Positions 223 through 18,436 of a DNA stretch of 37,827 nt are shown here, piece after piece (position 1 is the first letter of the stretch; each line of letters begins with the position of its first letter). The notes beneath the pieces were generated by a model, which did not search any database, had not been told where the DNA came from, and worked only from the letters and a program-made list of their open reading frames with translations. This stretch comes from Spartobacteria bacterium (GTDB lineage Bacteria > Verrucomicrobiota > Verrucomicrobiia > Chthoniobacterales > UBA6821), in contig CANKJN010000009.1 in NCBI GenBank assembly GCA_947482345.1, positions 1-37,827 of the forward strand, given 5' to 3'. A program made the translations under genes and the position numbers.

Positions 223-2598
223 TCAGCATGTGTTTCGTCCAGGATGCAACTGGTATGTACGTCCGTGGATCCTCAATGTGCCGGAGATTCCATCTGGCAG
301 GACGATCACAGCCGGCTGATTACGGGCGATCCGGCATTTGATCGTGCCGCGTGGATGCGGAACGTCCGCCTCGACCCATTCGAGATCTCCGAGATCGGGA
401 TGGACCTCCACCGCCTCGAATCCCCAGGCCGCTGGCCTGACGCCAAGCACCGAGGCGATGGCGTGGTGCGCAGGGTGCGCGCTCCAGCCATGGCAGTCGC
501 TGCGCGTCGGCTCCTCATGCTCGATCACTGTCGAGAGTCCGTCCGCCTGCATCCGTCGCCAAGGACCCAACCGGGTCAGGCCGGCCCCACCATGCCCCAA
601 CCGGGCCAGGGCCTCCCACACATGATGGAGGGAGGCTAAGGATGCGTTCGGCCGCAGGGTGCCCGCGGCAAGGGCCTTGGCTGCGTACTGCCGACCGGCT
701 TCCGGTAGCCCGTCAGCGCAGACCGCCCAGGCGACGGCATGTTCGCCACCAGGCGGGCCGCCAGGGGCATCGGAGAAGGCCGTGCCCAGCCAACGCTGTC
801 GCGTCAGCTCTGCACTGATCGCAGTGGCATGACGGCGCCAGCGGGTTGCCGGTTCCGCTTCACCGAGATGGTCCTCAAGCGCAGCCAGTCGGCGCAGCGC
901 CCATACCACCTGCCAGCACCACACCGTGCCTGGTCCGGGATCGGCCCCTGTCGGGATGCCATTGCCCCATTCCGGCACCCAATCGACGAACTGCCAGCCC
1001 TCCGGCGGGACCGGCAGGCCATCGGCATCCAGACGCTGCAGACAGAGATCGAGGATACCACGGGCGATGGGCAGCAGCCGGCGGATGCGCACGGCATCCC
1101 CGCGCCACCAGGCGTGGTCGTGTAGCATGACGATCCAGTGCAGGGCGAAGCCGGGGATGATCTGGGTGATGCGGGATGGAAACCGCGACGGGATCAGGCC
1201 GTCGGCCCGGCGGCCGAGTCCGATCAGTTCCAGGTTGGCCATCGTCAGGTCGGCATCAGCCCAGGTGGTATAGGCGGCCAGCGCCTGCAGATGGGCATCG
1301 GCAACGTACTGCAACTGCTCGTAGTAGGGGCAGTCCATCCAGGTCTCGTGGGCGCAGAGCCGCAGCGTCGTCCGGCTGGCGGTAATAATCGCGTCCAGGA
1401 CCGGATCGGAGCTCCTCCAAGCGGGATCCGCAGGGAACGGATAGCCGGTCTCCCGCAAGACCAAGCCGTGCAGGGTCAGCGGATCGTCGGCCGACTCCAC
1501 CGCCAGTTCGACATAGCGGCCGGCCGACCACCAGGGTGGAGTCCAGCTCCGGGCGGGGCCGCCGTCGCAGACCAGCCGGTCACCGAGACCGTCGAACCAG
1601 CGGCCGGAGACGCCGTTGCGGTCGCCCTTGCGCAGGGCTCCGGTTCCGGGCGGATCGAGCAGCAGGGCTTCGCACCACGACAGGCTGAGGCGGGACCCCG
1701 AGCCCCCCGACCAGGAGATGGTGGGATAGGCGCAGTGGTAGCAGCCAAGGTCGATGATGGCGCGGCGACGGGTACGTGGCGGCAGGATCAGGTCCTGTCC
1801 CGTCAACAAGCCTTGCCATTCGGTGGCTTCGTCGGGTCGATGCTCCTCTGCCGCGATCGGGCCTGCGCCGGCGACTCGGCTATCGAGATGACGCAGGACT
1901 CCGGGCGGGATGGGCGTTTCGTGCTGTTGCGGCAGTCGGGCTGGTGCCAATGCATGCCACAACGGTGGATGTTCGCTGGCGAAGGTCTCATCGACCCCCG
2001 GGTGAAGCACGGTCGGCGCGGACCAACCCTCATCACCATCGTCACCATCCTGCCACCCCCACGGGTGAGTGGTAGCGTCACAGCTCGCCCGGGCACCCGC
2101 GCCGAAGGCCGTTCCCGACGGGAGGTTGCCGAGTCCGGGCAGTAAACGGCAGAGCCAGGGGGCTCGGCCGGTGTCGATAACGGCCCCATGTAGGCCTTCG
2201 GCCGCACACAGGAAGCCCGGTGCAAGTCCTAACTGGGCCCAGGGCGCCGGACCGTCAGGACCAAGCCAGCGCACCTGCGCCGCCAGCACGTGGTCGCCAG
2301 CTGCCAGCTGCAGCCGCCAGCTATCGACCGGCCAGGCGCGCGGATCTCCCCGCTGCGGGCCGCGCCCGAGGAGCCGGCCATCGAGCCAGAGTTCGTAGCG
2401 CTCGTCGGCGGTGGCATGCAGCAGCACCTCGCTAGCGCAGGTCAGCGGCAGGCGCAGGCGGCAGGCGAAGGCCACCGGCCTCCCCGGTGTCAGGTCGGCC
2501 GGTGCGATCCACGAGGCCTGCCACCGACCACGCTCCGTAAAGGGTCTAGTGCGGTCGATGAAGGGCAGATGGTCGAGTCGGAGGCTAGTGGCGGACAT
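223..2598 (-). CDS. alpha-L-rhamnosidase-like protein (GH78 type)
   Basis: ORF 223..2757; start probably ATG at 2598 (MSATSLRLDHLPF) preceded by GAGGAA. Motif WMDCPYYEQLQYVADA, W-rich alpha/alpha-barrel region and C-terminal beta domain resemble bacterial alpha-L-rhamnosidases. Confidence 0.8.
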   Translation of the reverse strand: MSATSLRLDHLPFIDRTRPFTERGRWQASWIAPADLTPGRPVAFACRLRLPLTCASEVLLHATADERYELWLDGRLLGRGPQRGDPRAWPVDSWRLQLAAGDHVLAAQVRWLGPDGPAPWAQLGLAPGFLCAAEGLHGAVIDTGRAPWLCRLLPGLGNLPSGTAFGAGARASCDATTHPWGWQDGDDGDEGWSAPTVLHPGVDETFASEHPPLWHALAPARLPQQHETPIPPGVLRHLDSRVAGAGPIAAEEHRPDEATEWQGLLTGQDLILPPRTRRRAIIDLGCYHCAYPTISWSGGSGSRLSLSWCEALLLDPPGTGALRKGDRNGVSGRWFDGLGDRLVCDGGPARSWTPPWWSAGRYVELAVESADDPLTLHGLVLRETGYPFPADPAWRSSDPVLDAIITASRTTLRLCAHETWMDCPYYEQLQYVADAHLQALAAYTTWADADLTMANLELIGLGRRADGLIPSRFPSRITQIIPGFALHWIVMLHDHAWWRGDAVRIRRLLPIARGILDLCLQRLDADGLPVPPEGWQFVDWVPEWGNGIPTGADPGPGTVWCWQVVWALRRLAALEDHLGEAEPATRWRRHATAISAELTRQRWLGTAFSDAPGGPPGGEHAVAWAVCADGLPEAGRQYAAKALAAGTLRPNASLASLHHVWEALARLGHGGAGLTRLGPWRRMQADGLSTVIEHEEPTRSDCHGWSAHPAHHAIASVLGVRPAAWGFEAVEVHPDLGDLEWVEADVPHPRGTIKCRIARNQPAVIVLPDGISGTLRIHGRTYQLHPGRNTC

Positions 2599-2958: not shown

Positions 2959-4089
2959 TTATTTTTGAAAGAGTTCTCCCGGGTTGTCCTTGATGAGCGC
3001 GCCCGGCCCGTGGCCACCTCGGTCGAGGATGAGTTCCCTGAGCGCTCCGGAATCCATGACGTTGTCCTTGATCACCACATTGCGCAGGCCCTGCGCCACA
3101 ACGCCGTAATCGGGCGACCAGTTCTCTTCTTTGCTGAAGCCGGTGCTCCCCTCGTTGTTCTCGTCATCGAGTCCGGCGACCATGGTGTTGGCGGTGACCG
3201 TCACACCTCGGGCGCCGACGAGCACGATGTGGGCGCTGCAATCCTCGCCCGGGCGGTTCCAGATGGGACGACCGCTGCGGTAGATCATGTTGCCGGTGAT
3301 GCTCGTGTAGCCGACGCGACCGACGATGCGGTTGGTCACGACCGGATTGTCGGTCGTGGCGGAAAAGAGGATCCCCGGGCCGCAGCGGTCGATATAGTTT
3401 CCGGTGATGTTGTAGTGGGAGCCGTTGAGGATGCGTAGGCCGCCGAGTTGGTTCCACTCGATCCGGTTGCCGGTGATGGTGACGGCGTTGTTCTCGCCGA
3501 TGCTCGCGTAGCCGGCTCCGCCATTGAGCGAGAGCCAGTTGTCGAGGACGAACCCGTCCCAACCGCGCACGGAGAGGCCATGGCCCTTGTTCTCTGAAAA
3601 CATGTTACCCCTCACCCGGAAGCACCAGATCCGGCTCAGGCGCACTCCGTCGCCGCTGAAGCGCGAAACCTTGCACCCCTCGATGAGGGGACTGTCCTCG
3701 GTGGTGCCGTAGTCCGGCTTGTCCACCAGGATGCCGTGCACGCCGTCGCCGAGATACTGCCCGTCGAGGCAGAGGCCGTTGACGCGGGCGCCGATGGCGA
3801 GCGTGAGATCGAGCAGGCAGGAGGCGGCGGGGTCGATCAGCTTGAGCGTGGATCCTCCGTTGCCCTTCCATGCGTAGGCGGGCGAGCCGGTGATGCCGGT
3901 GTGGGAGTGCATCTTTAATCTGCCGACGCAATAGGTTCCCGGCGGAACCTCGACGGTCGCCTGGCTTTCCGCGGCGAGATCAAGAAGCTTCTGGAAAACG
4001 GCTGTGTCGTCGGTCTTGCCATCGCCGGTGGCGCCGGCGTGTTTGACATTGAATTTGGAATCGTAGGACTTAGGAATCGTCAGCATCAT
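2959..4089 (-). CDS. right-handed parallel beta-helix protein (pectate-lyase-3 / polygalacturonase-like)
   Basis: N-term HAGATGDGKTDDTAVFQKLLD plus repeated N-x-I/T-x-G-N beta-helix rungs (ITGNRIEWN, ITGNYIDRCG, ITGNMIYRSG, VTANTMV). Confidence 0.75.
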   Translation of the reverse strand: MMLTIPKSYDSKFNVKHAGATGDGKTDDTAVFQKLLDLAAESQATVEVPPGTYCVGRLKMHSHTGITGSPAYAWKGNGGSTLKLIDPAASCLLDLTLAIGARVNGLCLDGQYLGDGVHGILVDKPDYGTTEDSPLIEGCKVSRFSGDGVRLSRIWCFRVRGNMFSENKGHGLSVRGWDGFVLDNWLSLNGGAGYASIGENNAVTITGNRIEWNQLGGLRILNGSHYNITGNYIDRCGPGILFSATTDNPVVTNRIVGRVGYTSITGNMIYRSGRPIWNRPGEDCSAHIVLVGARGVTVTANTMVAGLDDENNEGSTGFSKEENWSPDYGVVAQGLRNVVIKDNVMDSGALRELILDRGGHGPGALIKDNPGELFQK

Positions 4090-5138
4090 TTGTTGTTTAG
4101 GGGAGGAAAGTAAATCCAGAGGTGCCCGTTGCGATCATCCTCGGCGGCAAGGATCTCGCCGTCGTTTCCCTCCAGCAGATCCGCGAACTGCAGGCCGTAC
4201 CGTCGTGCGGTGAGGGTGGAGACGGGAACTCCCAGGTCGCGGGCCCATCCCCTCTCCTCTTCCGCGCCGATCAGATACCAGTGGGCGATCTCCGGGCCCG
4301 CGGAGCCGAAGATCCTGCCGTCAGGCAGGCGGCAAAACGCGTGAACCGGCAGTAGCGGGATCCGACCCCTCTCCCGCAGGGCACCAGACCGCCACTCGAA
4401 GATCCGCCCCTCGCTGTCTGCATAAACGAACCCTCCGGGGAAGAGGCGCAATGCCTGAGGAGAGGGCTCATGGATCGGGAGTTTCTCCGGCGATCCAATA
4501 TCAAGGCTATCCCAGAGGAGCGGGAAGGCTTTCCATTCGTTGCTCAGCAGGCGGGTGCCGCCGTCCGCTTCCATGGCTGCAAGGATGCCCGGAAGCTGGA
4601 GAGATTTTTCCAGCACAAGTCCATTTTCCCGCGTTGTCAGGAAAAATCCAGTTCCCCCGCCCCACGCGAAGATGCGCTCGCCCACCCCAACCATTCCCTC
4701 GATCACTTCAACCGGAAGATCCAGCATCTTTTCATACGGGGCGCAATCCACGTACCATTCTTGGATGCCCTGCCCCATGGTGGCCGTCAGACAACGATGA
4801 ATCGAGGCTCCCCCACGGCCCGAGCAGGCAAGATAAACGATCTCTCGGCAGGTCGAGGCGCGGGAAAGCAGCGCCGTGATCTCGGAGGCTCCCGCCGGTG
4901 CTCCTAGATCCAGCGCGTAACCATGGGTTCCCTTGGGCCGGAACTGCAGGAGATGGGGCACCGGCCCGCGGGTGGCGGCAAAGACGTCCCTGCCGGAGAC
5001 CGACTGGAAAAGACGCCGGAGTCTGGTCTCGTCGGCCGGCGGTGGCAGGGAGACGCCGGGAAAGCAGGGCGGCATGGCGAGGAAGGTCCCCTCGGTGACA
5101 AAGTCCCCATTGACGGGAGGTGCGGTTTCTATCCCCAT
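4086..5138 (-). CDS. beta-propeller-like protein of unknown function
   Basis: 350-aa ORF with repeated short beta-blade-like segments; 4-bp overlap with downstream CDS (ATGA) suggests translational coupling. Confidence 0.55.
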   Translation of the reverse strand: MGIETAPPVNGDFVTEGTFLAMPPCFPGVSLPPPADETRLRRLFQSVSGRDVFAATRGPVPHLLQFRPKGTHGYALDLGAPAGASEITALLSRASTCREIVYLACSGRGGASIHRCLTATMGQGIQEWYVDCAPYEKMLDLPVEVIEGMVGVGERIFAWGGGTGFFLTTRENGLVLEKSLQLPGILAAMEADGGTRLLSNEWKAFPLLWDSLDIGSPEKLPIHEPSPQALRLFPGGFVYADSEGRIFEWRSGALRERGRIPLLPVHAFCRLPDGRIFGSAGPEIAHWYLIGAEEERGWARDLGVPVSTLTARRYGLQFADLLEGNDGEILAAEDDRNGHLWIYFPPLNNK

Positions 5139-6343
5139 AATCGTAGATACTGGTCGGGACGCATGTCGCGCGGGTGGTCGGGCAGAGTGACACGGTAGGC
5201 GCCGGCGGGTTTGGCCATGATTTTCCCAAAGACCATGTTCCCGCGCGCACTGAGTGCGCCCCGTGATACGTAGTGGTTGGCCCCATTCCCACCGAAGAGC
5301 GCACCGAGTCGTTCCCAGGTATTCTTTTCGGGATCAAGACGCATGAGCATCGAGGAAGTAGTCTCCCCGGAGCAGCCTGTGCTTTTTCCGCTCCACTCGG
5401 CCTTCACCAGATAAAGCCTGTCGTCGGCTCCCCAGACGAGGCCGCCGACATGGTCGAGGTTGACCGACATGACCTCCCTCGGGTCGCGATCCTGGGTGAT
5501 CGGGCCGAGGTCTTCCAACCTTCCCACCGGCCCCTCCATCGGCCAGAAGCGGGCCAGATGGGCGTGGGCTTTCCACGGAAGCATGTAGATGGCACCGCTT
5601 CGCGGATCGGCCACAGCGTCATAGAGCACGCCATGCCATGCGGATTGGTAGACCTCGTGGGGGTAAAAATGAGGGAGCTCCTCAAGGCGCTGGCGCTCAG
5701 GATCAAACCGCAGCATCCGCCCCGAGTCGTCGAACAGATAGGCACGTCCGATCGCATCCAGAAAAATGCACTGGGTATTGACCGAACCGATGCGGTCGTG
5801 GTCGGTGAGACGGCCGGAGGCTAGGTCGTAGGAGACGAAGTGGTCGCGCGGGTAGGTGATGGCGTAGAGGACGCGGCGGCGCTCATCAAGGGCAAGACAA
5901 CGGCATCCCTCCTTGGGAATCATGAGCCGTGACTCCGTGACAACATTGGCGGATGTGTCGTAGCTGATGAGGTAGGCGCCCCGGAAAGCGCGGACCGGAT
6001 CGTTCCACGAGGCCCAGGGGTTGTAGTGTTTCTCTCCCTTCGGCGGGCCGCTAAGGTGGGTGGCGGCATGGAGCAGGCCCTTCTCACGGTCGGGGACGAA
6101 GCTGTAGTGGATCTTGCACTGCGTGGCCCGGCCGCTATCGCGCAGGTCTCCGGTCACCTCGTCCAGGTCGAACAGGTATTCGAGCGTGTCGGTAGTTTCG
6201 TCCAACCGGAGGACGGTGGCCGTCTCACCCCCCGTATGCTCGGTGCAACTGGCGATGTAGACCCTGCCGTCCGGCCCCGTCTGGACGCTCCAGCAGGAGT
6301 CCGAGAGCGGGCGCTCGGAAAATTCGTGGTATTTAAAGTTCAT
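5129..6343 (-). CDS. beta-propeller-like (SMP-30/NHL-like) protein of unknown function
   Basis: 404-aa ORF; blades such as GPDGRVYIASC, DERRRVLYAITYPRDHFVSYDLASG, DAIGRAYLFDDSGRMLRFDPE, GADDRLYLVKAEW; overlaps neighbours on both sides. Confidence 0.6.
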   Translation of the reverse strand: MNFKYHEFSERPLSDSCWSVQTGPDGRVYIASCTEHTGGETATVLRLDETTDTLEYLFDLDEVTGDLRDSGRATQCKIHYSFVPDREKGLLHAATHLSGPPKGEKHYNPWASWNDPVRAFRGAYLISYDTSANVVTESRLMIPKEGCRCLALDERRRVLYAITYPRDHFVSYDLASGRLTDHDRIGSVNTQCIFLDAIGRAYLFDDSGRMLRFDPERQRLEELPHFYPHEVYQSAWHGVLYDAVADPRSGAIYMLPWKAHAHLARFWPMEGPVGRLEDLGPITQDRDPREVMSVNLDHVGGLVWGADDRLYLVKAEWSGKSTGCSGETTSSMLMRLDPEKNTWERLGALFGGNGANHYVSRGALSARGNMVFGKIMAKPAGAYRVTLPDHPRDMRPDQYLRLWG

Positions 6344-8130
6344 GAAATGACTTCCCCGTTCTGGGCATCGAGCAGGTCGCGGAAGGGACCGGGCTTCGAC
6401 ACGAGTTCGGAGTAGGTCCCGTCCTGAACGATCGTGCCATGGTCGAATACCACCACACGGTCGCAGAAACGGACGGTCGAGAGCCGGTGGGCAATGACGA
6501 AAGCGGTATTGTCCTTCATCGCATGGGTGAGAGTCTCGGTGATCAGGCTCTCCGATGCCGTATCCAAGGCCGACGTCGCCTCGTCGAAGATGAAAATTGC
6601 AGGCTGCTGCGCCAGGGCGCGGGCGATGCCAATCCGCTGGCGCTGACCGCCCGAGAGCGTCGCCCCCCCCTCGCCCAGGATGGTGTGGATTGTGTCGGGT
6701 AATTCCCGGACAAACTCCCAGGCGTTCGCCCGTTCGAGTGCCGCCACGATTTCCTCATCAGTGGCATCCGGATTCGCGAGGAGGATGTTTTCCCTCACGC
6801 TTGCGTGGAAGAGGAAGGTCTCCTGCGGGACGACTCCGAACTGCCTCCTCACGGTCTGCAGCGACACATCGCGCAGGTCGATGCCCCCGAGCAGGATCTC
6901 CCCCTTTCCCGGGTCGTAGAGGCGTAGCATCAGCGAGACGATCGTGCTTTTCCCGCACCCCGAGTGGCCGACAAAAGCGACCTTCTGTCCGTAGGGAACC
7001 TTCAGCGAGATGCCGTGAATGACCGGGCTACCCTGATAAGCGAAGACAATATCCCTTAGCTCCACGATAGGCCGTTCCGGAATTTCAACTTCCGTGGCGG
7101 GCGCCTCGGGCGTGGAAGTCCTGTGGGCCAGGACCGACTCGATCCGGTTGAGGCCCGCATGGGCGACGCCCAGTGCAAGCGCGCATTGGAAAAGTTGACC
7201 GATGAGTGGTTGAATGCTGGCGTAGGAGGCAAGAGTGGCCACGATCTCTCCCAACTGCACCCGCCCCTGCACAAAAAGGATGGTTCCGGCCACGGCCAGG
7301 ACGGAGAAAACGACCACTTGGATGGTCTCGGACTTCAACCCCAGGAGGTGGCTCCGCACCTGGACTTCGTAGGACTTGCTGCCGATGTCGGTCGCATCCT
7401 GCCGGAAACGCTCGACCACGCTCTCCTCGGCCCCGAGGATCTTGACCGCCTTCTGGCCCCGAAGCAGCTCGGAGGCGCGCCCGGAGACGGAGCTTTCGAG
7501 CCTTTGGAAGGATTGGTTGAGTTCCCGGATTTGCTTCGTGGCTCCGGGGGAGACCCAGGCATTGAGCAAAAGCCCCATGAGGAGGATGCCAGCCAGGATG
7601 GGATTCCAGGAGAAAACCAGCGCCAGCGTCGAAAGCAGGGTGAACATCACGAAGGGAACGATCAGGATGAACTGGAACAGAAACTGTTGAACTCCCCCCA
7701 GCGGACTACCGAAGAGGTAGCTCAGCAATTCTCCCGAGGGTTTCTGTTCATGGAACCGCAGGCAGAGAAAATTGACGTGCTCGAAGAAGTCGATGCGGAT
7801 GTGAACGAGCGCCCTCGTGCAGGCACGGGTGAAGAGCCTCAGGCTGAGGTGCCAGCAGATCATCCTGCCGACGAGAGCGACGAACAGGTAAAACGCCATG
7901 AGCAGAATGGCCCCCTTGATCTTGGAAGCGGGGGAAAGATCGGCCAGAAGCACCGAGTCGGTGAGATACTTGGGGACGGCATTCTGTGCCGTAATGGCAA
8001 TGCCGCAGATCATGTTCAGCCCGAGCGCGCCGAGAATGAGCCCGTGCGAGTTTCGGAAATAGCGCCAGAGCGTTTTCCAGAACGGATACGTCTTCTCCTC
8101 AAACCGGAAGGAGTTCGTCGGCTTATTCAT
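6340..8130 (-). CDS. ABC transporter, fused permease/ATPase half-transporter (exporter fold, MsbA-like)
   Basis: N-terminal TM segments; Walker A GHSGCGKST, signature LSGGQRQRIGIARAL, Walker B IFIFDEATSALD, H-loop IAHRLSTV. Confidence 0.93.
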   Translation of the reverse strand: MNKPTNSFRFEEKTYPFWKTLWRYFRNSHGLILGALGLNMICGIAITAQNAVPKYLTDSVLLADLSPASKIKGAILLMAFYLFVALVGRMICWHLSLRLFTRACTRALVHIRIDFFEHVNFLCLRFHEQKPSGELLSYLFGSPLGGVQQFLFQFILIVPFVMFTLLSTLALVFSWNPILAGILLMGLLLNAWVSPGATKQIRELNQSFQRLESSVSGRASELLRGQKAVKILGAEESVVERFRQDATDIGSKSYEVQVRSHLLGLKSETIQVVVFSVLAVAGTILFVQGRVQLGEIVATLASYASIQPLIGQLFQCALALGVAHAGLNRIESVLAHRTSTPEAPATEVEIPERPIVELRDIVFAYQGSPVIHGISLKVPYGQKVAFVGHSGCGKSTIVSLMLRLYDPGKGEILLGGIDLRDVSLQTVRRQFGVVPQETFLFHASVRENILLANPDATDEEIVAALERANAWEFVRELPDTIHTILGEGGATLSGGQRQRIGIARALAQQPAIFIFDEATSALDTASESLITETLTHAMKDNTAFVIAHRLSTVRFCDRVVVFDHGTIVQDGTYSELVSKPGPFRDLLDAQNGEVIS

Positions 8131-8157
8131 TGGGTGTGATAAAATCGTAATTCAGGG

Positions 8158-10467
8158 CTACTCGAGAGAGCGGGCTTTCCTCAATTTGAGGTAGGCAAAC
8201 AGAGGCCAGGCGTGGGCGTGCGAGCAGAAGGCGGGAAATTCAGGCCAAATGCTTTGCTGATCTGGCAAGCCGACAGTGGGAAGCAGGGATGAGTCGAAGT
8301 TATCGGGGGCGGTCCAGATCCCCGGCCAGTAGTCGGGAAATCTTCTGGCGTGGGCCGCCAGAGTCATGGATTGAAACAAGCGCTCTGCGACCTTCCGGTC
8401 AACCTCCGCCGCGTGAACGATCGCCGGACCGATGAGAGCAAACCAGACTCCACCGTTCTCACGCCCTCCCGTCTTGAAGGGAGGAATTTCAACGGGGGTC
8501 TCCTGCTGCCGCATGCCCCAGGGTTCGGAAAGGCGGCGTTGCATTTCGCGGAGCAGGACACGCCGCTTGGCCAAGGGGGCATCTTTGATTCCCAGCGCAA
8601 AAACCTGGGGTTCCATCCACATCTGGTCGGCGCCAAGGCACCCGGCAGGAGTATGGGCCCGGGCTAAGAAAGATCGTCCCTTCCATTCTTTCATGAGGGC
8701 CGCATGCAATTCCGCACGGTAGCATCGGATCATTTTGGAAAGAATCAGAGCACGCGGGGCAATGGACTTGGAAAGCAACCGGGCCGATCTCTTCAGCGCG
8801 ATCCCAAGTTGCTCCAAAACCACGCAGGCCTGGGCTGTATTGAGATGGCTCTCCGACTGCAGAAACATGTCGGCATAGGGAACAGCGGTGGAGGCGCAGT
8901 AGATCCCGTCGTTCCAGTCGGAATTCATCAGGCGGACCAGGCCGTGGCTGCCGCGCCCGACCTCGTCCCGTAGAAAACGGAAGGCGCGTTCGGCATGCTC
9001 CAAAACGGTCACGGGTCGGCAATGCCCATCGGGAGGCCAAGGGGCGAGCTTTGTTCCCAGAAAGGCGGCATCCCCGCTGGTATCCAGATATTCGGCGAGC
9101 AATCCGAAAAAGTACAACTGCTGGTCGCTGGTCGCAAAAAAAGCCGTTGTCGTTGACCCGGGGCCGTTCTCCATGAGCCTGATTTCACCGTTGGGGGTCA
9201 TTTTCCTGCAAGCATGCCGGAGGGTATCGCTGGCGAGCCATGGCATGAGTTGGCAGAGAGGCAGGGCATGCTGAAGGTGATCCCGCGCGGAGCAGGTGAT
9301 GCCAAAGTCATACTCATAGGAGGGGCCCTGCGGTATGAATCGCACCCCGTAAACGGAACTCCACGTGGCCAGCGACAGCAGCATGGCGGAATGCCAGCGC
9401 ATCTCACGACGCAGCGGGGCGTCGCTTTCGTTCGGAAAATCGGGAACGGCGCGGGCCCAGGCCCGCCGCCATCCGGAGACAACGGCAAGGGTGGGTGCAA
9501 CGGCAAGGCGCTCTCCTCCATACAAAGCACTCCAGACCCATGCGAAGCTGCGGGTTTCGCCCGGCTCCAATCGAACCCCGGCAGAGATCCCTACCGTGCA
9601 GGCATTGCCGGAGAGGCGTGTTTGCAAACTGGGGATTTCGCGACCGAAACTTTCGCAACGGATGGCCGGGGGATGCCATTCAATCGGCGAGGAGGTGGCA
9701 GGATCCAACGATTCATAGGCACCACTGGAGGGCATCGCAGCGAAGGGAATTTCGACTGAACGCTTCGAGCATCGCGAAGTCCCTGGCTTGTATACAACGG
9801 GGTGCTTGGCTGCTGGAACATGCTGCAGGGTGATGGGGCCGTAACGCATCCCCAACTCCCTGACAAACGAGCATTCCATCGGTGCCGAACTCTCGTTTCG
9901 CAGGGAAATCGTCTCGATCCATTGGTTCGGTCTCGGGGCTTTCTCCACCGAGGGCGGACACTCGATCCGGTGCTCGAGCACAAGACCTTTGGCAGTGCGA
10001 TAGCGCCACCGGGCAAACCCGCAGCCGAAAAGGCGTTCGACCGAGGAGGCTGAGGGACTTCCCCCTATGAAGCTCCGCTTGGACGATCCTTCAAACGCTC
10101 TCAGACTACCGGCTGAGCCGTTTCGTTTCCCATTCCAGTTGAGCCGCGCCCATTCTCGAACTCCCGACAACCATTGAACGCTGCCGCTGGCATGGACGAA
10201 AAGTTTTGTCCCGTCATTGCCCACAAGGAACCACGGATCATCCGGCACTCTTGCCGGAAAACCGTCCGGCAACCGGGTGCTGACAGGCAGCCGTGCATCA
10301 AAACGAAACGCAGGCAAGCCTTGATCATCTTGAATCCAGGTACCGAAGCTTCCTCCATCGCCGCCGTTTGTTTGACCCGGTTGACTTTGGGAAGAGGCTT
10401 TTCGTTTAGAAATCTGACTCAAACGGGTCTGAGCGGTTTTCGAATTCAGGTGCAAAGTGTCATCCAT
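8158..10467 (-). CDS. GH94/GH36-type glycoside phosphorylase-like protein (divergent)
   Basis: ORF 8158..10485 (TTG start possible at 10485, ATG at 10467); contains SDWNDG and alpha/alpha-barrel segments shared with the GH94 family. Confidence 0.65.
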   Translation of the reverse strand: MDDTLHLNSKTAQTRLSQISKRKASSQSQPGQTNGGDGGSFGTWIQDDQGLPAFRFDARLPVSTRLPDGFPARVPDDPWFLVGNDGTKLFVHASGSVQWLSGVREWARLNWNGKRNGSAGSLRAFEGSSKRSFIGGSPSASSVERLFGCGFARWRYRTAKGLVLEHRIECPPSVEKAPRPNQWIETISLRNESSAPMECSFVRELGMRYGPITLQHVPAAKHPVVYKPGTSRCSKRSVEIPFAAMPSSGAYESLDPATSSPIEWHPPAIRCESFGREIPSLQTRLSGNACTVGISAGVRLEPGETRSFAWVWSALYGGERLAVAPTLAVVSGWRRAWARAVPDFPNESDAPLRREMRWHSAMLLSLATWSSVYGVRFIPQGPSYEYDFGITCSARDHLQHALPLCQLMPWLASDTLRHACRKMTPNGEIRLMENGPGSTTTAFFATSDQQLYFFGLLAEYLDTSGDAAFLGTKLAPWPPDGHCRPVTVLEHAERAFRFLRDEVGRGSHGLVRLMNSDWNDGIYCASTAVPYADMFLQSESHLNTAQACVVLEQLGIALKRSARLLSKSIAPRALILSKMIRCYRAELHAALMKEWKGRSFLARAHTPAGCLGADQMWMEPQVFALGIKDAPLAKRRVLLREMQRRLSEPWGMRQQETPVEIPPFKTGGRENGGVWFALIGPAIVHAAEVDRKVAERLFQSMTLAAHARRFPDYWPGIWTAPDNFDSSLLPTVGLPDQQSIWPEFPAFCSHAHAWPLFAYLKLRKARSLE

Positions 10468-10513
10468 GGTGATTGGGAGGATCAAACCGTCTCACGGAAG
10501 CCACAGGCGGGGA

Positions 10514-12799
10514 TCAATCGATGCTAACCTCTCCCGTGGCGTTGTTGATTTCGATGCGGTAGGTCTTGCCACGGAGGCGGCGGCTGACCTTCACCCCGGT
10601 CCAATGCGAAGGAAGGCACGGCTTGACCTCCAATCCCTCGAACGTCGGCTGGATGCCGAGCAGGTGCTGGGTGGCGGCGATGTAGGCCCAGCTTGCCGTC
10701 CCGGTCAGCCAGCTGATGCCAGCCTTTCCGAAATCACCCTCCTGTGCAGGCCCGATGACCGAGGAGGTGAAGACATAGGGTTCCCTGCCCCAGTGCTCGA
10801 AGCCCTCTTCCTCCGCGGCGATGGAGGGAAGGAGCTTGCGGTAGTACTCGAAGGCGCGGTCACCATTCCCCAGCATGCACTCGGCAATGATGGCCCATGT
10901 CATGGCATGGCAGAAGATGCTGCCGTTTTCGCCAGTGCCGGGAACATTGCTCGTGAGCGGATCCTCGGGATTCGGGATGCCTGTGTAGGGCGGGGTGTGG
11001 ATCATCAGCCCGCGCCGAGTATTCAGAAGCCTGTTGGCGGCATCCATGGCCATCCCTCCACGGCCGTCGCTACCGACTCCGGAGATCACGGACCAGACCT
11101 GCGGCTCCAGATAGATCTTTCCCTGGGGGCGGCTCTTGCTTCCGATTTTCATCCCGTTGGAGAGCAGGAGGCGGCAATACCACTCGCCGTCCCAAACCGG
11201 CTCCGCGTTGAGCTTTTCGGTGAGCTCCGCGCTCACGGCATCGCACCAGTCAGCATCCTCCCTCCGCCCAAGGCGGATGGCGACATCACGCAGGAGATTG
11301 GCCGCATGGACGAGTTGCATCCCTAACATGACGCTCTCGGCATTCTCATCATGGAAGACGGCCAGGCCGTCATTCCAATCGGCATGCGCCAGCAAGGGAA
11401 GTCCGTGCGGGCCGCGGCGCGCATGGATGTATTGCAGTCCAAGCAGGATGTGGTCGTAAACGCTGGCCTCCCCGCCGTCGCGGAAGGGGATCACTTCCCC
11501 AAGGAAGGAGAGGTCACCAGTTTCGTTGATCAGATTGGTCACGGTCATGGTCGGCCAGACGGTGTTGTCGGAGCGGCGCGGCTCTTCGTTGATGCGCTGC
11601 TTCGGGGCGTAGGGATAGAAGGAGAAGCAACCGGATCCATCCTTGCCCTGGGCGGCGAAAATCAACCGGATCCGCTCCTTGGCAAATTCAGGGTCGATGC
11701 TGGTCATCGCCAGAGCATCCTGCATGGTGTCGCGGTAGCGCATGCCGTCGAGACCCGTGTGGTCGGTGGAGATGTCGCGGGTGCGCTCGAGGGTGATCTG
11801 GCAGTTGAGGGGGTTCCAGACATTGATGAACCGGTCGACATGGGCGTCGCCCGTCTCCGCCTGAAAGAGCGACGTCTTGCGATTCCACTCCCCCTGAAGC
11901 GATGCAAAGGCGTTGTCGACGGCTTCCATGCGGGAGTATTTCTTCCTGAGCACGGAGGCGAGTGCCCATTCATCGGCCACGCCCAGCATGTAGGCGAAGC
12001 GTTCCGTCGCACCGGGAGCGAGTTCCAGATCCACCCCCATGACCCCGCAGCCGTGACCACCGGCGGGAATCTGCGATCCGGAGAAGCCGTCACCCAACAA
12101 TGCTTTGGGACGCTCGAGCGATCCGCCCCGACCGCAGAAGGCGGCACGCGAGGTTTCAAATCCGTCCGCTTGACGGGTGCAGGAGAAAAACATGGCGGGC
12201 GCGTAGGGCGCCTGGAAGACGTGGTAGTCGTATTTGATCCAGTTCTCGCGAGCATCATACGTGAAGCCGATCTGGTTCTTGAGGTAGCACCAGAAGGACT
12301 CGCGGGCTGACTCCAGGAGGCCAAATTCCAGGTAGCTCGAGAGGGTGAGTTTTTTTGACTCCTTGGCTCGGTTGGTCACCGAGACATCCCAGAGCATCAC
12401 CTCGTCATCAGGCGGGACGAAGAGTCTCAGGGAGACCTCCAGGCCGTCGCGGGATGAGACGAACATGGTGTATCCGAGTCCGTGGCGGCACTCGTAGGAA
12501 TCAAGCGGTGTCGAGGTCGGTCCGAAGTGGGGATTCCAGAGAGCGCCGGTCGCGTGGTCCTTCACGTAGAGGTAGAAGCCGGGCTGATCCTGCGCCGCCG
12601 GCATGTAATGGTAGCGGGAGATGCGGCGCGCATGGGGCTCCTTGTAAAAGACCAGACCGCCCGCCTGCTGGCTGACGAAAGCTGTCAGGCGCGTATTGCC
12701 GAGGTAGTTGATCCATGGCGAGGGAGTCAGCGGATCGGTGATCACGTACTCCCGGGAGGGATCGTCGAAATGTCCGTAGCTGGTTTTCAAGGTGGTCAT
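10514..12799 (-). CDS. GH94-family glycoside phosphorylase (cellobiose/chitobiose phosphorylase-like)
   Basis: YGHFDDPSREYVITDPLTPSPWINYLGN start, RYRDTMQDALA, LAHADWNDG, GENGSIFCHAMTWAIIAECMLGNGDRAFEYYRKLLPS are characteristic. Confidence 0.88.
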   Translation of the reverse strand: MTTLKTSYGHFDDPSREYVITDPLTPSPWINYLGNTRLTAFVSQQAGGLVFYKEPHARRISRYHYMPAAQDQPGFYLYVKDHATGALWNPHFGPTSTPLDSYECRHGLGYTMFVSSRDGLEVSLRLFVPPDDEVMLWDVSVTNRAKESKKLTLSSYLEFGLLESARESFWCYLKNQIGFTYDARENWIKYDYHVFQAPYAPAMFFSCTRQADGFETSRAAFCGRGGSLERPKALLGDGFSGSQIPAGGHGCGVMGVDLELAPGATERFAYMLGVADEWALASVLRKKYSRMEAVDNAFASLQGEWNRKTSLFQAETGDAHVDRFINVWNPLNCQITLERTRDISTDHTGLDGMRYRDTMQDALAMTSIDPEFAKERIRLIFAAQGKDGSGCFSFYPYAPKQRINEEPRRSDNTVWPTMTVTNLINETGDLSFLGEVIPFRDGGEASVYDHILLGLQYIHARRGPHGLPLLAHADWNDGLAVFHDENAESVMLGMQLVHAANLLRDVAIRLGRREDADWCDAVSAELTEKLNAEPVWDGEWYCRLLLSNGMKIGSKSRPQGKIYLEPQVWSVISGVGSDGRGGMAMDAANRLLNTRRGLMIHTPPYTGIPNPEDPLTSNVPGTGENGSIFCHAMTWAIIAECMLGNGDRAFEYYRKLLPSIAAEEEGFEHWGREPYVFTSSVIGPAQEGDFGKAGISWLTGTASWAYIAATQHLLGIQPTFEGLEVKPCLPSHWTGVKVSRRLRGKTYRIEINNATGEVSID

Positions 12800-12962
12800 G
12801 GTTTTGAGGATGTTGAGAGCGTTGGGAAGGGTGGTTTCTTACGGGCGCTTGTTCCCGAGCCAATCTTCCAGAGGTCGGATGCCGTTCATTGGCACACTCC
12901 CTTTGACGGATGCTCTCCCACGGGACTCAAGCGCGATGTCTAAAAAAATAGGCAATCTTCAA

Positions 12963-15140
12963 CTAGGCCGGCAACTCCACGCGGAACACTTCTCCCGCCT
13001 TGCGGTCGATATCGACCAGGCAGACTCCATCCACGACGGGGATTTCCTCGCCGGTGACCAGGTTCTTGAGCAGGAGCGGACGGATGGTGTTGAAGACAAC
13101 GCGCATCTCGGCAGGTTCCGGGTAATGATTGAGCACGAAGAGGACCGGAAATCCGCCGCCGCTTTGCAGGACGGCTGAGGCCAGGATGCGGCTCTCTTCG
13201 GTGCGCTGGATCCGATCGAGGGCTGATCCTCCCAGCTTGCCGCCCGCGTTGGTGACGCCGCTGTCTTCCCCCCAGGCTTCCCAGACGACGGGCGAGGGCA
13301 ATTCCAGGGCCACATGCCAGCTTCCCGCCGAGCGAACGCGTTCCCGCACCCAGGCGATGGCTTCGAGTGATTCCTTCTCGGCATCCTCCATCCCCAGTGT
13401 AGCTCGGTGGATGACGATACCACTGCCGATCTGCGTCTCTTCGGAAGCGGGCTTCCCGATCCCCAAAAAGGTGAGCGGACGCCCCAACTCGTTGAGGGAG
13501 GGCCATGGTCCGCTGACGACCAAGGTGCCTCCAGCTGCGACCCACTCGCGCATCTCGGCCGAACCGGCCGCCGAGGCGATGGGGGATCCTGGATAAAAGG
13601 CCAGCTTGACCTTGGAAAGACGCTCCGGCCTCGCCTCGATATCCACGGCCAAGGGCTGATGTCCCGCCGCTTCCGTCACGCGGTGCAGTCCGTAGTATTC
13701 CTGACTGGCTAACCCGGCAAGGCTTTCCCTGATGACGGGGGCGCCCACGTGCGATTTGCCATCGTTGCAGGGGGAAACATCCCCGATGGAGGTGTGCCGG
13801 TGATGGACCACGTCGTAGATCACGGCGCAATCCCCCTCGACCTGAAGCTGGTCCCAGTGCGGGATTGACTGGGTGCAGAGAGCGTACGTCTCGCGCAGCA
13901 CCTCCCAACTCGGACGCCGGTGGCCGTGGGGACTGACCGGGCAGTCGCCCCAGACGCGGCGGTCATGGAACATGAACCACGAAAGGGCCTTGCAACCTTG
14001 CGCAAGCGCCGACCGCGCCATGAATCGCATGTGATCGTCGGAGACACGCGTGGACAGGACCTTTTCCCACGTCCCGCTCATGAATTCCGGAGACCAGGTG
14101 TAATCGAGGCTGGCGTTCATCAACCTCAGCACGCGGGCCATGGAGCTGTAGCCCGACCAGCTCAGGAATGTGCCTCGGTAGAAGTCGTATCCCACGATTC
14201 CCCTCCCCTTGTCCTTGCCCTTCACCGCTTGCTCGAAACTCGGCATGCGCGTCGGCACCCCTTCCGGAAGATGAGGGTTGAAGTTGGTCATGAAGGTGAC
14301 GTCCTCCACGCCATTGGCCACGTGCATGGCCCGTAATTCCGCCAAGTACCGCGACATGCACCACTCCTTGAACTCCACCCAATCGAGATACCACGCCGCG
14401 TCGGCGGTGATGTCCACAGGGACTTCGCGAGGCGGCTGCACCTCTTCGATGGCCGCATGCTTCACGGGGTACGGCAAGGCGCCCGCCGTCCCGTATTTTT
14501 CCCGAAGGAACTGGTGATAATAGCCCCCGGGGCGCACGTTCACGGGATTATAATCACTCGAGAGCATCCCATCTTGGACGATGTAGCTCACCTCGTTATC
14601 GAGGTTAATCATCGTGATGAACCCGCCGTTGGATTTCAGGCGGGGCTTGATGATCTTGTCCACCTCGTTGATCCACTTACGGCACCAGTCGAGATAGTCC
14701 GGATGGAGGTAGCTCGGCTGGGAACCTTCCTTGCGCGTGGTCCAGTATCCCTGGGTCGTGCGGTTCTGGTGATCCCACACCATCATGGAGGGGTCGCCGC
14801 AGACCAACCACTTCGGATAACCGCCGAATTCCATTTCGTTGCAGCAAAACGGGCCGCTCCGGAAGTTGAGTTCGAGTCCCATCTCCTGAATGAGATCGAG
14901 GAAATGGTAGAGGTTGAGATTCGGATTCGTCCGGCCCTCGAAATCAAGCTCGCCGGCGGGATGTTCGGCGCTCGGCGGTCCGACCAGGTGCGTTCCCCAC
15001 TGGACGTAGGTGGTGACGTTCTTGAGTCCGGTCTCCTTGAATTGCTGAAGGATCGGCTTCCAGAAGCGTTTCTCAAGGCGGAAGTATTGGATCTCGCCGC
15101 CGAATATGTCGGCGCTGTTGATGGACGGATTTTCTTTCAT
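12963..15140 (-). CDS. beta-galactosidase-like glycoside hydrolase (GH35/GH42, clan GH-A)
   Basis: Start MKENPSINSADIFGGEIQYFRLEKRFWKPILQQFKETGLKNVTTYVQWGTH; NE motif MINLDNEVSY and SPEFMSGTWE nucleophile-like region. Confidence 0.78.
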   Translation of the reverse strand: MKENPSINSADIFGGEIQYFRLEKRFWKPILQQFKETGLKNVTTYVQWGTHLVGPPSAEHPAGELDFEGRTNPNLNLYHFLDLIQEMGLELNFRSGPFCCNEMEFGGYPKWLVCGDPSMMVWDHQNRTTQGYWTTRKEGSQPSYLHPDYLDWCRKWINEVDKIIKPRLKSNGGFITMINLDNEVSYIVQDGMLSSDYNPVNVRPGGYYHQFLREKYGTAGALPYPVKHAAIEEVQPPREVPVDITADAAWYLDWVEFKEWCMSRYLAELRAMHVANGVEDVTFMTNFNPHLPEGVPTRMPSFEQAVKGKDKGRGIVGYDFYRGTFLSWSGYSSMARVLRLMNASLDYTWSPEFMSGTWEKVLSTRVSDDHMRFMARSALAQGCKALSWFMFHDRRVWGDCPVSPHGHRRPSWEVLRETYALCTQSIPHWDQLQVEGDCAVIYDVVHHRHTSIGDVSPCNDGKSHVGAPVIRESLAGLASQEYYGLHRVTEAAGHQPLAVDIEARPERLSKVKLAFYPGSPIASAAGSAEMREWVAAGGTLVVSGPWPSLNELGRPLTFLGIGKPASEETQIGSGIVIHRATLGMEDAEKESLEAIAWVRERVRSAGSWHVALELPSPVVWEAWGEDSGVTNAGGKLGGSALDRIQRTEESRILASAVLQSGGGFPVLFVLNHYPEPAEMRVVFNTIRPLLLKNLVTGEEIPVVDGVCLVDIDRKAGEVFRVELPA

Positions 15141-15183
15141 GGTTGGTGTGTGATGAGGTGAGTTGAGGTGTTTTGTGCGAGAT

Positions 15184-16455
15184 TCAATGCGCGATGTCCG
15201 AAGGGCACGGGTCGTAGTGCGGGTGAGGTACTTTCGGGATGCGGAGGCCGCCGCTCTGGTAGACCACGGGTTCGCCATCGCACTCGATCCGGATCGCGGG
15301 CCAGAGGCCGGTCTCGTCGGTGTTGGGGACATTGTCGATCCGCAGGCGCGTTCCGCTCTGGGTGAAAGGCAGCGCCTCGCCGTTGTCGAGGCGGCTCACG
15401 GAGAGAACCTTGTTCTGCAGTCCGCCGAGGGTGGCCTTGTCGCCGGGTGAACGCCGCAGCAGCCAGAAGAGGGAGTGTCCCTTCGCTGTCATTGGGCCGT
15501 GGAAATTCCAGTCGCCGCGATGGGCTCCGCGCTCCTGCAGGTTGTAGGTGAAGAGTTCGGTCCCGTAGATCGCCTCGCCGTTTTTGCGAAGCCATTCGCC
15601 GACGCGGTGCAGCACACGGGTGCAGGGCTCGGGGACGACGCCGTCGGGGGAGGGGCCGACATTGAACAGGAGATTGCCGTTCCCCTGTGCGCAACGGGCG
15701 AGCATGTCGAGGACTTGCGACTCGGTTTTCCATTCGTGGTCGCCGGCATGGAAGCTCCAGCTTTCATTCATCGTCACGCAGGCTTCCCATGGGCGCCACG
15801 GATTCGGCGCGCTGAGGTGCTGCTCGGGCGTGGCGAAGTCGCCCGGCAGGCCATTGCGGCCGTTGAAGAGAATGTGCGGCTGGATCTCGCGGACCATGGC
15901 GTTCATCTTTTCGGCCTCCCATCCCCCGGCGTTGAACGGCCACCAGCCGTCATACCAGAGGATGTCGATCGGATTGTAGCGGGTGACCAGCTCCCGGATG
16001 CGCTCGTGGGTCGCCTTGATGAAAGCATCGTAGGCGACGGGATTCTCCAGCGCGGCGACGGAATCGGGCTGATCATACCAGTTGTTGAGACTGTGGTAGA
16101 GGCCGACCTTGAGTCCGTGCTTCCGTGCGGCGGCAATGATCTCGGCAACCAGATCGCGCCCTGCGGCACCGCTGTTGCCGATATGGAAATCGGAAAGCTC
16201 CGTCGGATAGAGGCGGAATCCCTCATGGTGCATTGTCGTGAGCACTACATATCGCATGCCGGCATCCACCGCCATGCGGCAGAGCCTGTCGGCGTCGAAA
16301 TCCTTCGCGGTGAACCGGGCGGCGAGTTGCTTGTATTCCTCAAGGGGGATTTCCTCCCGGTTCCAAACCCACTCCGCGCGCTCTAGCAGGGAATAGAGAC
16401 CATAATGGATGAAGAGACCGTAGCGGGCCTCGGTGAACCAGTTGTTTGTTGTCAT
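15184..16455 (-). CDS. alpha-L-fucosidase (GH29)
   Basis: WFTEARYGLFIHYGLYSLLERAEWVWNREEIP, YDAFIKATHERIRELVTRYNPIDILWYDGWWP, LLFNVGPSPDGVVP; alternative start at 16476. Confidence 0.92.
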   Translation of the reverse strand: MTTNNWFTEARYGLFIHYGLYSLLERAEWVWNREEIPLEEYKQLAARFTAKDFDADRLCRMAVDAGMRYVVLTTMHHEGFRLYPTELSDFHIGNSGAAGRDLVAEIIAAARKHGLKVGLYHSLNNWYDQPDSVAALENPVAYDAFIKATHERIRELVTRYNPIDILWYDGWWPFNAGGWEAEKMNAMVREIQPHILFNGRNGLPGDFATPEQHLSAPNPWRPWEACVTMNESWSFHAGDHEWKTESQVLDMLARCAQGNGNLLFNVGPSPDGVVPEPCTRVLHRVGEWLRKNGEAIYGTELFTYNLQERGAHRGDWNFHGPMTAKGHSLFWLLRRSPGDKATLGGLQNKVLSVSRLDNGEALPFTQSGTRLRIDNVPNTDETGLWPAIRIECDGEPVVYQSGGLRIPKVPHPHYDPCPSDIAH

Positions 16456-16477
16456 GACGGGATCGGTTGTGATCATT

Positions 16478-18118
16478 TTATTTTGATGCTTCTTGGGAAA
16501 ACTGCGGTGCGGAACGCGGCCAGCGCGGCATGCCGGGGCGTAAAAGCGCGGCATCCAGATCGCCCTCCGGAACCAAACGGCGCAGGAAGGGGAGTGCGTG
16601 CTTGATCCGCCTGAGGCTTTCCGCATAAAGGGCCTTGCATTGCGTGAAATGCGAGCCATGGCCACCGAGATTGAGATCGACATCCTCGTCAACCATCTGC
16701 ATGTAGCTTTTCAAGATGCCGCTTTGCCCGTCGGGGATGCTGTGGTTGGAAATCGCGCCGAAGTTGATCCCATCCGAATCACCGTGGCTTTGGATGGTAT
16801 CGCCAGTGACAGCCAGTCGAAGGCCGTTGAAAGACAGAAGATAGGCGGCGTGAACATAGCAATGCCCTGGCAGGTGGATGGTGCTAATGGCTGTGCCGTG
16901 CCAGAAAAAAGGCTCCCCCACGCGAAGAACATCGTCCACGGCGACATGATCGACTCCCACATTATACCAGGGAAGAAGAGCGGGATACGGGTAGTCCCAT
17001 GGCGCCTCCATGACACGGGCAACAAGGTCCCAAGCGGCCACGCGACAGCGCGGGTAGCGCCTCTTCAGATCAGGCGTCATGTCGTAATGGTCGCCGTGAA
17101 AATGAGTAATGATCGCCAGATCGATCTCGCGCAACCCGCATTCCCTCTCCAGCAGCGCAAGGTCGTTCTGGAAGCTCTCTCGCCGCGTCGGCGACTCGTA
17201 ATCGCAGGGCCCTGGATCGAACATCAAACCGCGCCCCTCGTCATCAATGAGCACGATGCAGTTGCCTAAGTTATCCAATTGGTAAACCCCCTTGTGGAGC
17301 CTCAGGTAGCGGCCGACACGCGGATAGTCGGGCTGCGGTGCCGGGGAGAAGAGGCCGCTTTGCCAAGCAATGGCCTGGTGGTAGGCATCGATGGCATCGG
17401 CGAGAGCGAGGGCCTGATCCGGACCGTCGTTGATCACCGGACCTGTCGAGGAAAAGTAGGTCCTCACCGGACGGGCCGCCAGTCTGCGGAGTACGGCGGG
17501 AAGATCAAGCAGCGCGGTTCCGCCGTAATTCACCTCTAGATCGTAAAGGTTCACCAACCGGGCACCGTCGCACATAAGATCGCCGGTGAAGATCGCCAGG
17601 GGTACCCCCGCAAGCTCCAGAACGAATCCGACATGATGCCGGCCGTGACCGGGAAGAGGAATCACCTCGAACACGAGATCCTGCCATTCAATCCGCTCCC
17701 CCTCAAGGAACGTTCCCGCGACATTGAGCGGGTATTGGGGAGGAAATTCGGTGATGCTTCCCGCCACGCCATACTCCTCCCGGCCGAGCGTGAGCCCCCA
17801 TTCCTCGGGGCGCTCCCAACGCGTGCGAGTCGCCCTCTCGTAGCCGGCCCGGTCGCAGGCAAGCTCAACGGCCTCCTCATGCACCAGGATACGGGCCTCC
17901 GGGAAGCGGTCGGCCTCGCGGCATTTGCCGGGCTCGACATGCGTGTGGAGGATGATTTCAGGCGATGGCAGCCCCTGGTGCTCCAGCCAGCGCCCGAACT
18001 GCGGCGAGTGACAATTGACCAAAAGGCTACTTCCTCCACGGACCACCAGATGACTCGTGGATTCACCGACGAGGGAATGGATTTCCAAATCCGGGGCCAA
18101 TTCATGAACATTTTTCAT
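16478..18118 (-). CDS. tandem metallo-beta-lactamase-fold hydrolase (N-terminal domain degenerate)
   Basis: C-terminal domain THFHGDHYD, LPGHCYVHAAYLL, GDTIQSHGD, GGHGSHF; N-terminal domain HTHVEPGKCREAD, LPGHGRHHVGF, TGDLMCDG. Start MKNVHELAPDL at 18118. Confidence 0.85.
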   Translation of the reverse strand: MKNVHELAPDLEIHSLVGESTSHLVVRGGSSLLVNCHSPQFGRWLEHQGLPSPEIILHTHVEPGKCREADRFPEARILVHEEAVELACDRAGYERATRTRWERPEEWGLTLGREEYGVAGSITEFPPQYPLNVAGTFLEGERIEWQDLVFEVIPLPGHGRHHVGFVLELAGVPLAIFTGDLMCDGARLVNLYDLEVNYGGTALLDLPAVLRRLAARPVRTYFSSTGPVINDGPDQALALADAIDAYHQAIAWQSGLFSPAPQPDYPRVGRYLRLHKGVYQLDNLGNCIVLIDDEGRGLMFDPGPCDYESPTRRESFQNDLALLERECGLREIDLAIITHFHGDHYDMTPDLKRRYPRCRVAAWDLVARVMEAPWDYPYPALLPWYNVGVDHVAVDDVLRVGEPFFWHGTAISTIHLPGHCYVHAAYLLSFNGLRLAVTGDTIQSHGDSDGINFGAISNHSIPDGQSGILKSYMQMVDEDVDLNLGGHGSHFTQCKALYAESLRRIKHALPFLRRLVPEGDLDAALLRPGMPRWPRSAPQFSQEASK

Positions 18119-18128
18119 CTGAGGGTAA

Positions 18129-18314
18129 TCATGAAAGGCAGAGCCTGTCGGCGTCGAAATCTTTCGCTGTGAAGCGGTCGGCGAGTTGCTTGTATTCCTC
18201 AAGGAGGATCTCTTCCCGGTTCCAGACCCACTTGCCCCTTTCGAGCAGGGAGTAAAGACCATAGTGAATGAAGAGACCGTAGCGGGCCTCGGTGAACCAG
18301 TTGTTTGTTGTCAT
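18129..18314 (-). pseudogene. 5'-truncated-copy remnant of the GH29 fucosidase gene (N-terminal ~60 codons only)
   Basis: MTTNNWFTEARYGLFIHYGLYSLLERGKWVWNREEILLEEYKQLADRFTAKDFDADRLC is near-identical to the start of the GH29 CDS, then the ORF stops at TGA. Confidence 0.9.
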
Positions 18315-18436
18315 GTGAGGAAAGTTCGGATCGCAGTCAGCAGATTGTGTCAAATCGCCGTGCTGAGCTTCGGAGTTCGGGGTTAGATGCTGCTTCAGTG
18401 CGATCGGCCTGATGTCCGCCCCCCATCAATCAGACA

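Follow-up and report, generated by a model that had tools for sequence, protein, structure and literature searches.

A predicted cytosolic fucosidase operon from a Spartobacteria bacterium with an exporter-fold ABC transporter and a conserved pair of beta-propeller proteins

Fucosidase loci have been described in marine Verrucomicrobiota, where glycoside hydrolase (GH) genes of families GH29 and GH95 form clusters that lack SusCD and that in some cases include putative sugar transporters (PMC8857213); the field regards as unsettled how members of this phylum import and break down glycans when SusCD is absent (PMC8857213). The GHs of TonB-linked CUT loci in freshwater Verrucomicrobia are mostly predicted to be extracellular or located in the outer membrane, and a TonB receptor is clustered with them (PMC5615132). 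Here, an operon is examined that occupies positions 2959-18118 on the minus strand of contig CANKJN010000009.1 (C9) from a Spartobacteria bacterium (GCA_947482345.1; genome G000, 2.36 Mb, 93% complete). The entire contig, 37,827 bp in length, constitutes the window that was analyzed. The tightly packed genes encode, in order, a metallo-beta-lactamase (MBL)-fold protein, GH29, a GH35-like enzyme, GH94, a GH94-like protein, an ABC half-transporter, two beta-propellers (prop1 and prop2), and a beta-helix protein (Table 1). As in the marine loci, a fucosidase is co-localized with other GHs. The operon differs from both described types of loci in its exporter-type ABC protein and two apparently new propellers, and from the CUT loci additionally in its cytosolic-looking enzymes and its lack of a sulfatase or TonB receptor. 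It is read here as an accessory operon for the cytosolic catabolism of an imported fucosylated oligosaccharide, a reading that includes catalysis by prop1 and a role for the ABC protein and to which a probability of about 0.5 is assigned.

The part of the operon that is shared with other genomes comprises the genes for the ABC protein, prop1, and prop2. This block, with its overlaps of 4 bp and 10 bp preserved, recurs in a genome of the same genus (G057) and in one from another family of the same order (G033; loci L016/L017). Identities for ABC/prop1/prop2 are 93/89/68% in G057 and 86/88/66% in G033. The flanks are different: in G057 a gene for a 900-aa GH38 alpha-mannosidase lies upstream and two esterases (SASA-type acetylesterase and BD-FAE) are encoded downstream, while in G033 the block is preceded by genes for a GH35-like enzyme, a GDSL esterase, a major facilitator superfamily (MFS) permease, and GH29 (91% identity). 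An earlier note, made from the DNA letters of the window, had named as a threat to its interpretation that the ABC gene might be an unrelated insertion; the conservation of the block in three loci beside different enzymes shows that it is not and establishes the gene as an integral part of the operon. At high identity, prop1 was found in 3 of the 197 genomes sampled from the order and in 1 of 26 from the family of G033. The closest relative of the operon to bear a name belongs to a metagenome-assembled genome (MAG) labeled Chthoniobacter flavus (same order, another family), and a scan of genome contigs with the window protein P0003 returned one locus. The identities of 86-91% across families suggest that G033 may have acquired the block horizontally; misbinning of the G033 contig, which is 14.7 kb long and derives from a MAG, is a possible alternative. 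A recurring unit of ABC and two propellers beside different cytosolic glycosidases offers a concrete handle on SusCD-free glycan use.

The ABC protein has a transmembrane domain (TMD) fused to a nucleotide-binding domain (NBD), with the Walker A/B, LSGGQ signature, and H-loop motifs all intact, and a fold similar to the P-glycoprotein and Sav1866 types. The TMD-NBD half-transporter architecture and the intact NBD motifs are shared with the MsbA/HepA/PglK-type exporters. In NCBIfam it resembles HepA, MsbA, and glucan exporters but falls below the cut-off for all models among the matches listed; its scores for the MsbA and HepA models, 340 and 344 bits versus cut-offs of 602 and 725, are about half of those needed for curated equivalogs, and its gene, unlike those of the named exporters, is coupled to a propeller pair. 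PADLOC returned only ATPase-type matches, to this protein. Export is presumed by default as its direction.

By profile search, relatives of the propellers turned up in 71 of 388 Verrucomicrobiota genomes. Iterated searches on fetched loci, from which the following counts derive, found separate genes for prop1 and prop2 side by side in 8 more genomes (G264, G251, G290, G495, G307, G572, G343, and G556) and a single fused chain in G231 and G272; a third fusion candidate (G299) is interrupted by a contig end. A looser group (L009, L010, and L060-L064) consists of single proteins of ~700 aa with both propeller regions, some of which adjoin prepilin-like genes. Homology between the two propellers is supported by hhalign (99%), and the pair is, on sequence comparison, phylum-wide and evidently old. 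Judged from identities to the sister loci (66-68% for prop2 versus 88-89% for prop1), prop2 evolves faster than its partner. In prop1, D15, E35, K77, H79, H96, H168, D181, R184, D278, and Y311 are invariant in all 14 sequences of the alignment, including those as low as 26% in identity, while the conserved residues of prop2 are chiefly glycines and other structural positions. We infer that prop1 may be catalytic, with prop2 as a supporting partner. AlphaFold predicts a propeller for prop1 (pTM 0.73, mean pLDDT 62); the prop2 model, built from three close sequences, is too poor for use (pLDDT 54). A non-exhaustive search of open-licence papers turned up no description of the pair, which is apparently reported here for the first time as a family, and one that is open to straightforward enzyme assays.

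Membership of prop1 in the polysaccharide lyase (PL) families PL24, PL25, or PL42 (BNR_4) was considered and rejected. These lyases are likewise propellers with two conserved His, and the spacing between H168 and R184 of prop1 (16) equals the Tyr-Arg spacing of PL25/PL42. However, their His-His spacing is 20 as opposed to 17 in prop1, prop1 has no signal peptide, and the inviting spacing was accompanied by a failed profile comparison (hhalign 3.4%, out of register) and no Pfam match.

Genes near the propeller pairs in other genomes lend support to a function in sugar catabolism. An MFS gene lies directly upstream of prop1 in G290 and G540. In G290 and G495, a GntR regulator whose sugar-binding domain is of the LacI type (Peripla_BP_3) is encoded ahead of the pair or divergently from it. 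Additionally, G290 encodes an NAD-dependent epimerase after the pair and a GH95 fucosidase further on, PIG-L and DegT precede the pair in G264, and Gfo/Idh oxidoreductases are encoded near it in G343 and G272. A route through oxidized (3-keto) glycosides, to which the oxidoreductases might point, is speculation.

The location of the enzymes was assessed from the hydropathy of the best 11-residue stretch near the N terminus at every in-frame start, rather than with SignalP. For the soluble enzymes of the operon the value was at most about 1.5 at any such start; the one clear signal peptide nearby, encoded by the CM2 gene (start 19991), served as a reference and reached 3.2. The statement of the earlier note that the enzymes lack signal peptides therefore holds with corrected starts as well, and the signal peptides at alternative starts that would have spoken against it did not appear. 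The absence of signal-like N termini supports the intracellular processing that had been proposed, and we infer that the enzymes are probably cytosolic. The gene junction overlaps given previously (4086/4089, 5129/5138, and 6340/6343) were exact, as were the open reading frames and strands. The MBL-fold gene lies one gene further upstream than had been noted and is likely the first of the operon; its product has two metallo-beta-lactamase regions and a weak match to GloB.

Families were assigned by Pfam and NCBIfam profile scans of the window proteins. The GH29 enzyme retains the WYDG motif with the catalytic Asp nucleophile. Of the two GH94 proteins recognized earlier, P0006 is convincing and P0005 marginal. 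The homology of P0006 to cellobiose, lactose, and chitobiose phosphorylases (3qde, 3s4c, 1v7v) extends over its full length. It has both the supersandwich and the catalytic domain and retains the DWND acid (474) as well as two phosphate-site motifs, one with His (FCH, 629) and one with Thr (SWLTGT, 696), although it reads FCHAMTW where 3qde reads FCHNNAW. P0005 is related to these phosphorylases distantly: it retains DWND, but the phosphate-site His region is replaced and reads NGGVWFALIGP, and the Pfam scan gave no supersandwich-domain match. The closest solved relatives of the GH35-like P0007 (LDNE at 244) are archaeal GH35 exo-beta-D-glucosaminidases of the GlmA type (5gsl, 6jow), with which it shares the acid/base Glu. 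In GlmA this residue is directly preceded by Asp178, which recognizes glucosamine (PMC6566704). P0007 has Asn at that position, and glucosaminidase activity is therefore not expected. Relatives of the GH29 and GH94 enzymes also occur in an amino-sugar context, as locus L117 (G139:C359) has the order MFS-GH29-GH94-190 aa-PIG-L followed by what may be the beginning of a glucosamine-phosphate deaminase gene. A GlmA-type chitobiose pathway (GH35, PIG-L, and GH94), which this locus suggested, was rejected on account of the Asn in P0007 and the lack of PIG-L in the operon. The depolymerase label that the beta-helix protein had received is at most tentative; the protein resembles alginate epimerases and glucanases only weakly, and lyase, hydrolase, and epimerase are candidate functions.

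Under the catabolic reading, an oligosaccharide would cross the outer membrane via a porin or the single TonB receptor of the genome and the inner membrane via a permease encoded elsewhere; outside the window, a single TonB barrel was found in the source genome, along with nine matches each to MFS and BPD_transp_1. GH29 would then remove fucose, the GH35-like enzyme the next residue, and GH94 would phosphorolyze a beta-disaccharide. As the catalytic subunit of a complex with prop2, prop1 might act on a residue that the glycosidases cannot cleave, by elimination, epimerization, or hydrolysis at a K/H/H/R center, and a homodimer of the ABC protein, made in step with the propellers, could move the substrate or product of this step, most simply outward. 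A catabolic role is favored over a biosynthetic one because the operon has no glycosyltransferase and because GntR regulators, MFS permeases, and GH95 occur near homologous pairs elsewhere. Of the earlier interpretation, cytosolic processing and the integral ABC protein are retained; nothing points directly to rhamnose or galactose as components of the substrate. An N-glycan substrate is possible, in view of GH38, GH29, and GH94 across the sister loci.

Several observations weigh against this reading. The invariant polar residues of prop1 lie mostly on one face of the model (13 of 18), but this is no more than suggestive (Fisher p = 0.065) given a mean pLDDT of 62. Moreover, neither propeller had a Pfam match above the cut-off or at E 0.1 and the fold search with prop1 returned generic propellers only, which also leaves the earlier suggestion of PL11 or PL22 unsupported. 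The Pfam scan recognized no sugar importer in the window operon, and the G033 locus has MFS and ABC together, such that the ABC protein need not replace a permease. Finally, regulators and permeases lie near only some of the propeller pairs, and the ABC gene lies near none outside the three Chthoniobacterales loci.

The operon might instead remodel or recycle a self-made glycan or glycolipid, with the ABC protein as an MsbA/PglK/HepA-like flippase and the enzymes trimming before or after flipping. The best NCBIfam resemblances of the ABC protein would agree with this, all below the cut-off as they are, as would the ability of phosphorylases and of a GH35 glucosyltransferase relative (7vkw) to work synthetically and the DegT and PIG-L genes that adjoin the G264 pair. 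This is nonetheless unlikely, since the operon encodes no glycosyltransferase or lipid-carrier enzyme and none was recognized in the partially annotated sister loci, sugar-responsive GntR regulators and GH95 are found near other pairs, and the high-identity distribution noted above (3 of 197 genomes) is patchy and accessory.

Import of the oligosaccharide by the exporter-fold ABC protein itself, in place of the MFS permease of related propeller operons, is a doubtful alternative to the permease-dependent uptake favored above. Directly upstream of prop1, G290 and G540 have MFS where the three Chthoniobacterales loci have ABC. No second transporter is encoded in the window operon, and neither the source genome nor G057 yielded a homologue of the MFS that is linked to the operon in G033 and G139. 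The earlier note had reported the absence of SusC/D, TonB receptor, and importer genes; the first two are indeed missing from the scanned genes, whereas the absence of an importer is local, as MFS adjoins GH29 in G033 and G139. Against import stand the coexistence of MFS and ABC in the G033 locus, the MFS and BPD_transp_1 proteins elsewhere in the source genome that could serve, and the fact that most exporter-fold transporters export; the exceptions that import, mycobacterial Rv1819c and IrtAB, carry small molecules or siderophores, which counts against it too. The more far-reaching proposal that prop1-prop2 represents a new two-subunit or fused family of cytosolic carbohydrate-active propeller enzymes, wired in Chthoniobacterales to a glycan-importing exporter-fold ABC protein that replaces MFS, must be considered a long shot. 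An ordinary multidrug or peptide exporter that is only a passenger, alongside propellers that are non-enzymatic scaffold or lectin proteins, would suit the P-glycoprotein/Sav1866-like fold, the frequent scaffolding role of propellers, and the mere three ABC-linked loci known, but is improbable given that overlap and order are identical in three loci with different flanks and that K/H/H/H/R/E of prop1 is invariant down to 26% identity.

In eight genus mates (L135-L142), lipA is followed on the same strand by a gene encoding MNLTxRQxEILSFIR (in one case with an extra gene between), which is taken to be lexA. In the source genome, lipA is followed (window 18437) by a fragment of GH29 and then by the operon, the far end of which is lost at the contig edge; in G057, lipA-lexA is on contig C27 and the ABC-propeller block on C12. 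The arrangement in the genus mates and the fragment found here indicate that the operon was inserted after lipA as an accessory element and that the fragment is a recombination (or duplication) scar. Searches for plasmid DNA and viral contigs found nothing.

Table 1. Features of the operon and its surroundings, in window coordinates
Feature	Position	Strand	Likely start	Evidence
Truncated GH29 5'-end copy, ~180 bp	18137..18315	-		89% identical; between lipA and MBL gene
MBL-fold (metallo-beta-lactamase superfamily) hydrolase	16478..18118	-	18118	Lactamase_B 1.8e-14; 1-bp gap to GH29
GH29 alpha-L-fucosidase, 430 aa	15184..16476	-	16476	PF01120 2.2e-78; closest solved structure 6gn6 9.5e-68
GH35-like retaining glycosidase (P0007), 725 aa	12963..15140	-	15140	PF01301 7.8e-29; archaeal GlmA relatives 3.9e-38
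GH94 disaccharide phosphorylase (P0006)	10514..12799	-	12799	PF17167 1.2e-104, PF06165 1.9e-60; cellobiose phosphorylase 1.8e-135
Divergent GH94-superfamily protein (P0005)	8158..10467	-	10467	27.3 bits vs cut-off 27; alignment to 2cqs
ABC exporter-fold half-transporter, TMD+NBD	6340..8130	-	8130	PF00664 (ABC_membrane) 1.1e-24, PF00005 (ABC_tran) 6.2e-33
prop1, beta-propeller, 404 aa	5129..6343	-	6343	Phylum-wide family, conserved residues, propeller model
prop2, beta-propeller, 350 aa	4086..5138	-	5138	prop1 homologue
Parallel beta-helix protein	2959..4089	-	4089	Pect-lyase_RHGA_epim in N-terminal part, about 1e-13
GH78-like alpha-L-rhamnosidase	223..2598	-		PF17389 5.8e-13

Both the operon membership and the cellular location of the GH78-like gene product are doubtful. 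The gene was kept out of the core because of a 360-bp gap from the operon, a GC content of 68% versus about 61%, and the hydrophobic, signal-like N terminus (hydropathy 2.34) that results from an alternative TTG start at 2757. Signals in promoter and terminator scans were not usefully above those in shuffled sequence. At the right contig end (37115-37827, minus strand), 5S rRNA and the 3' part of 23S rRNA are encoded.

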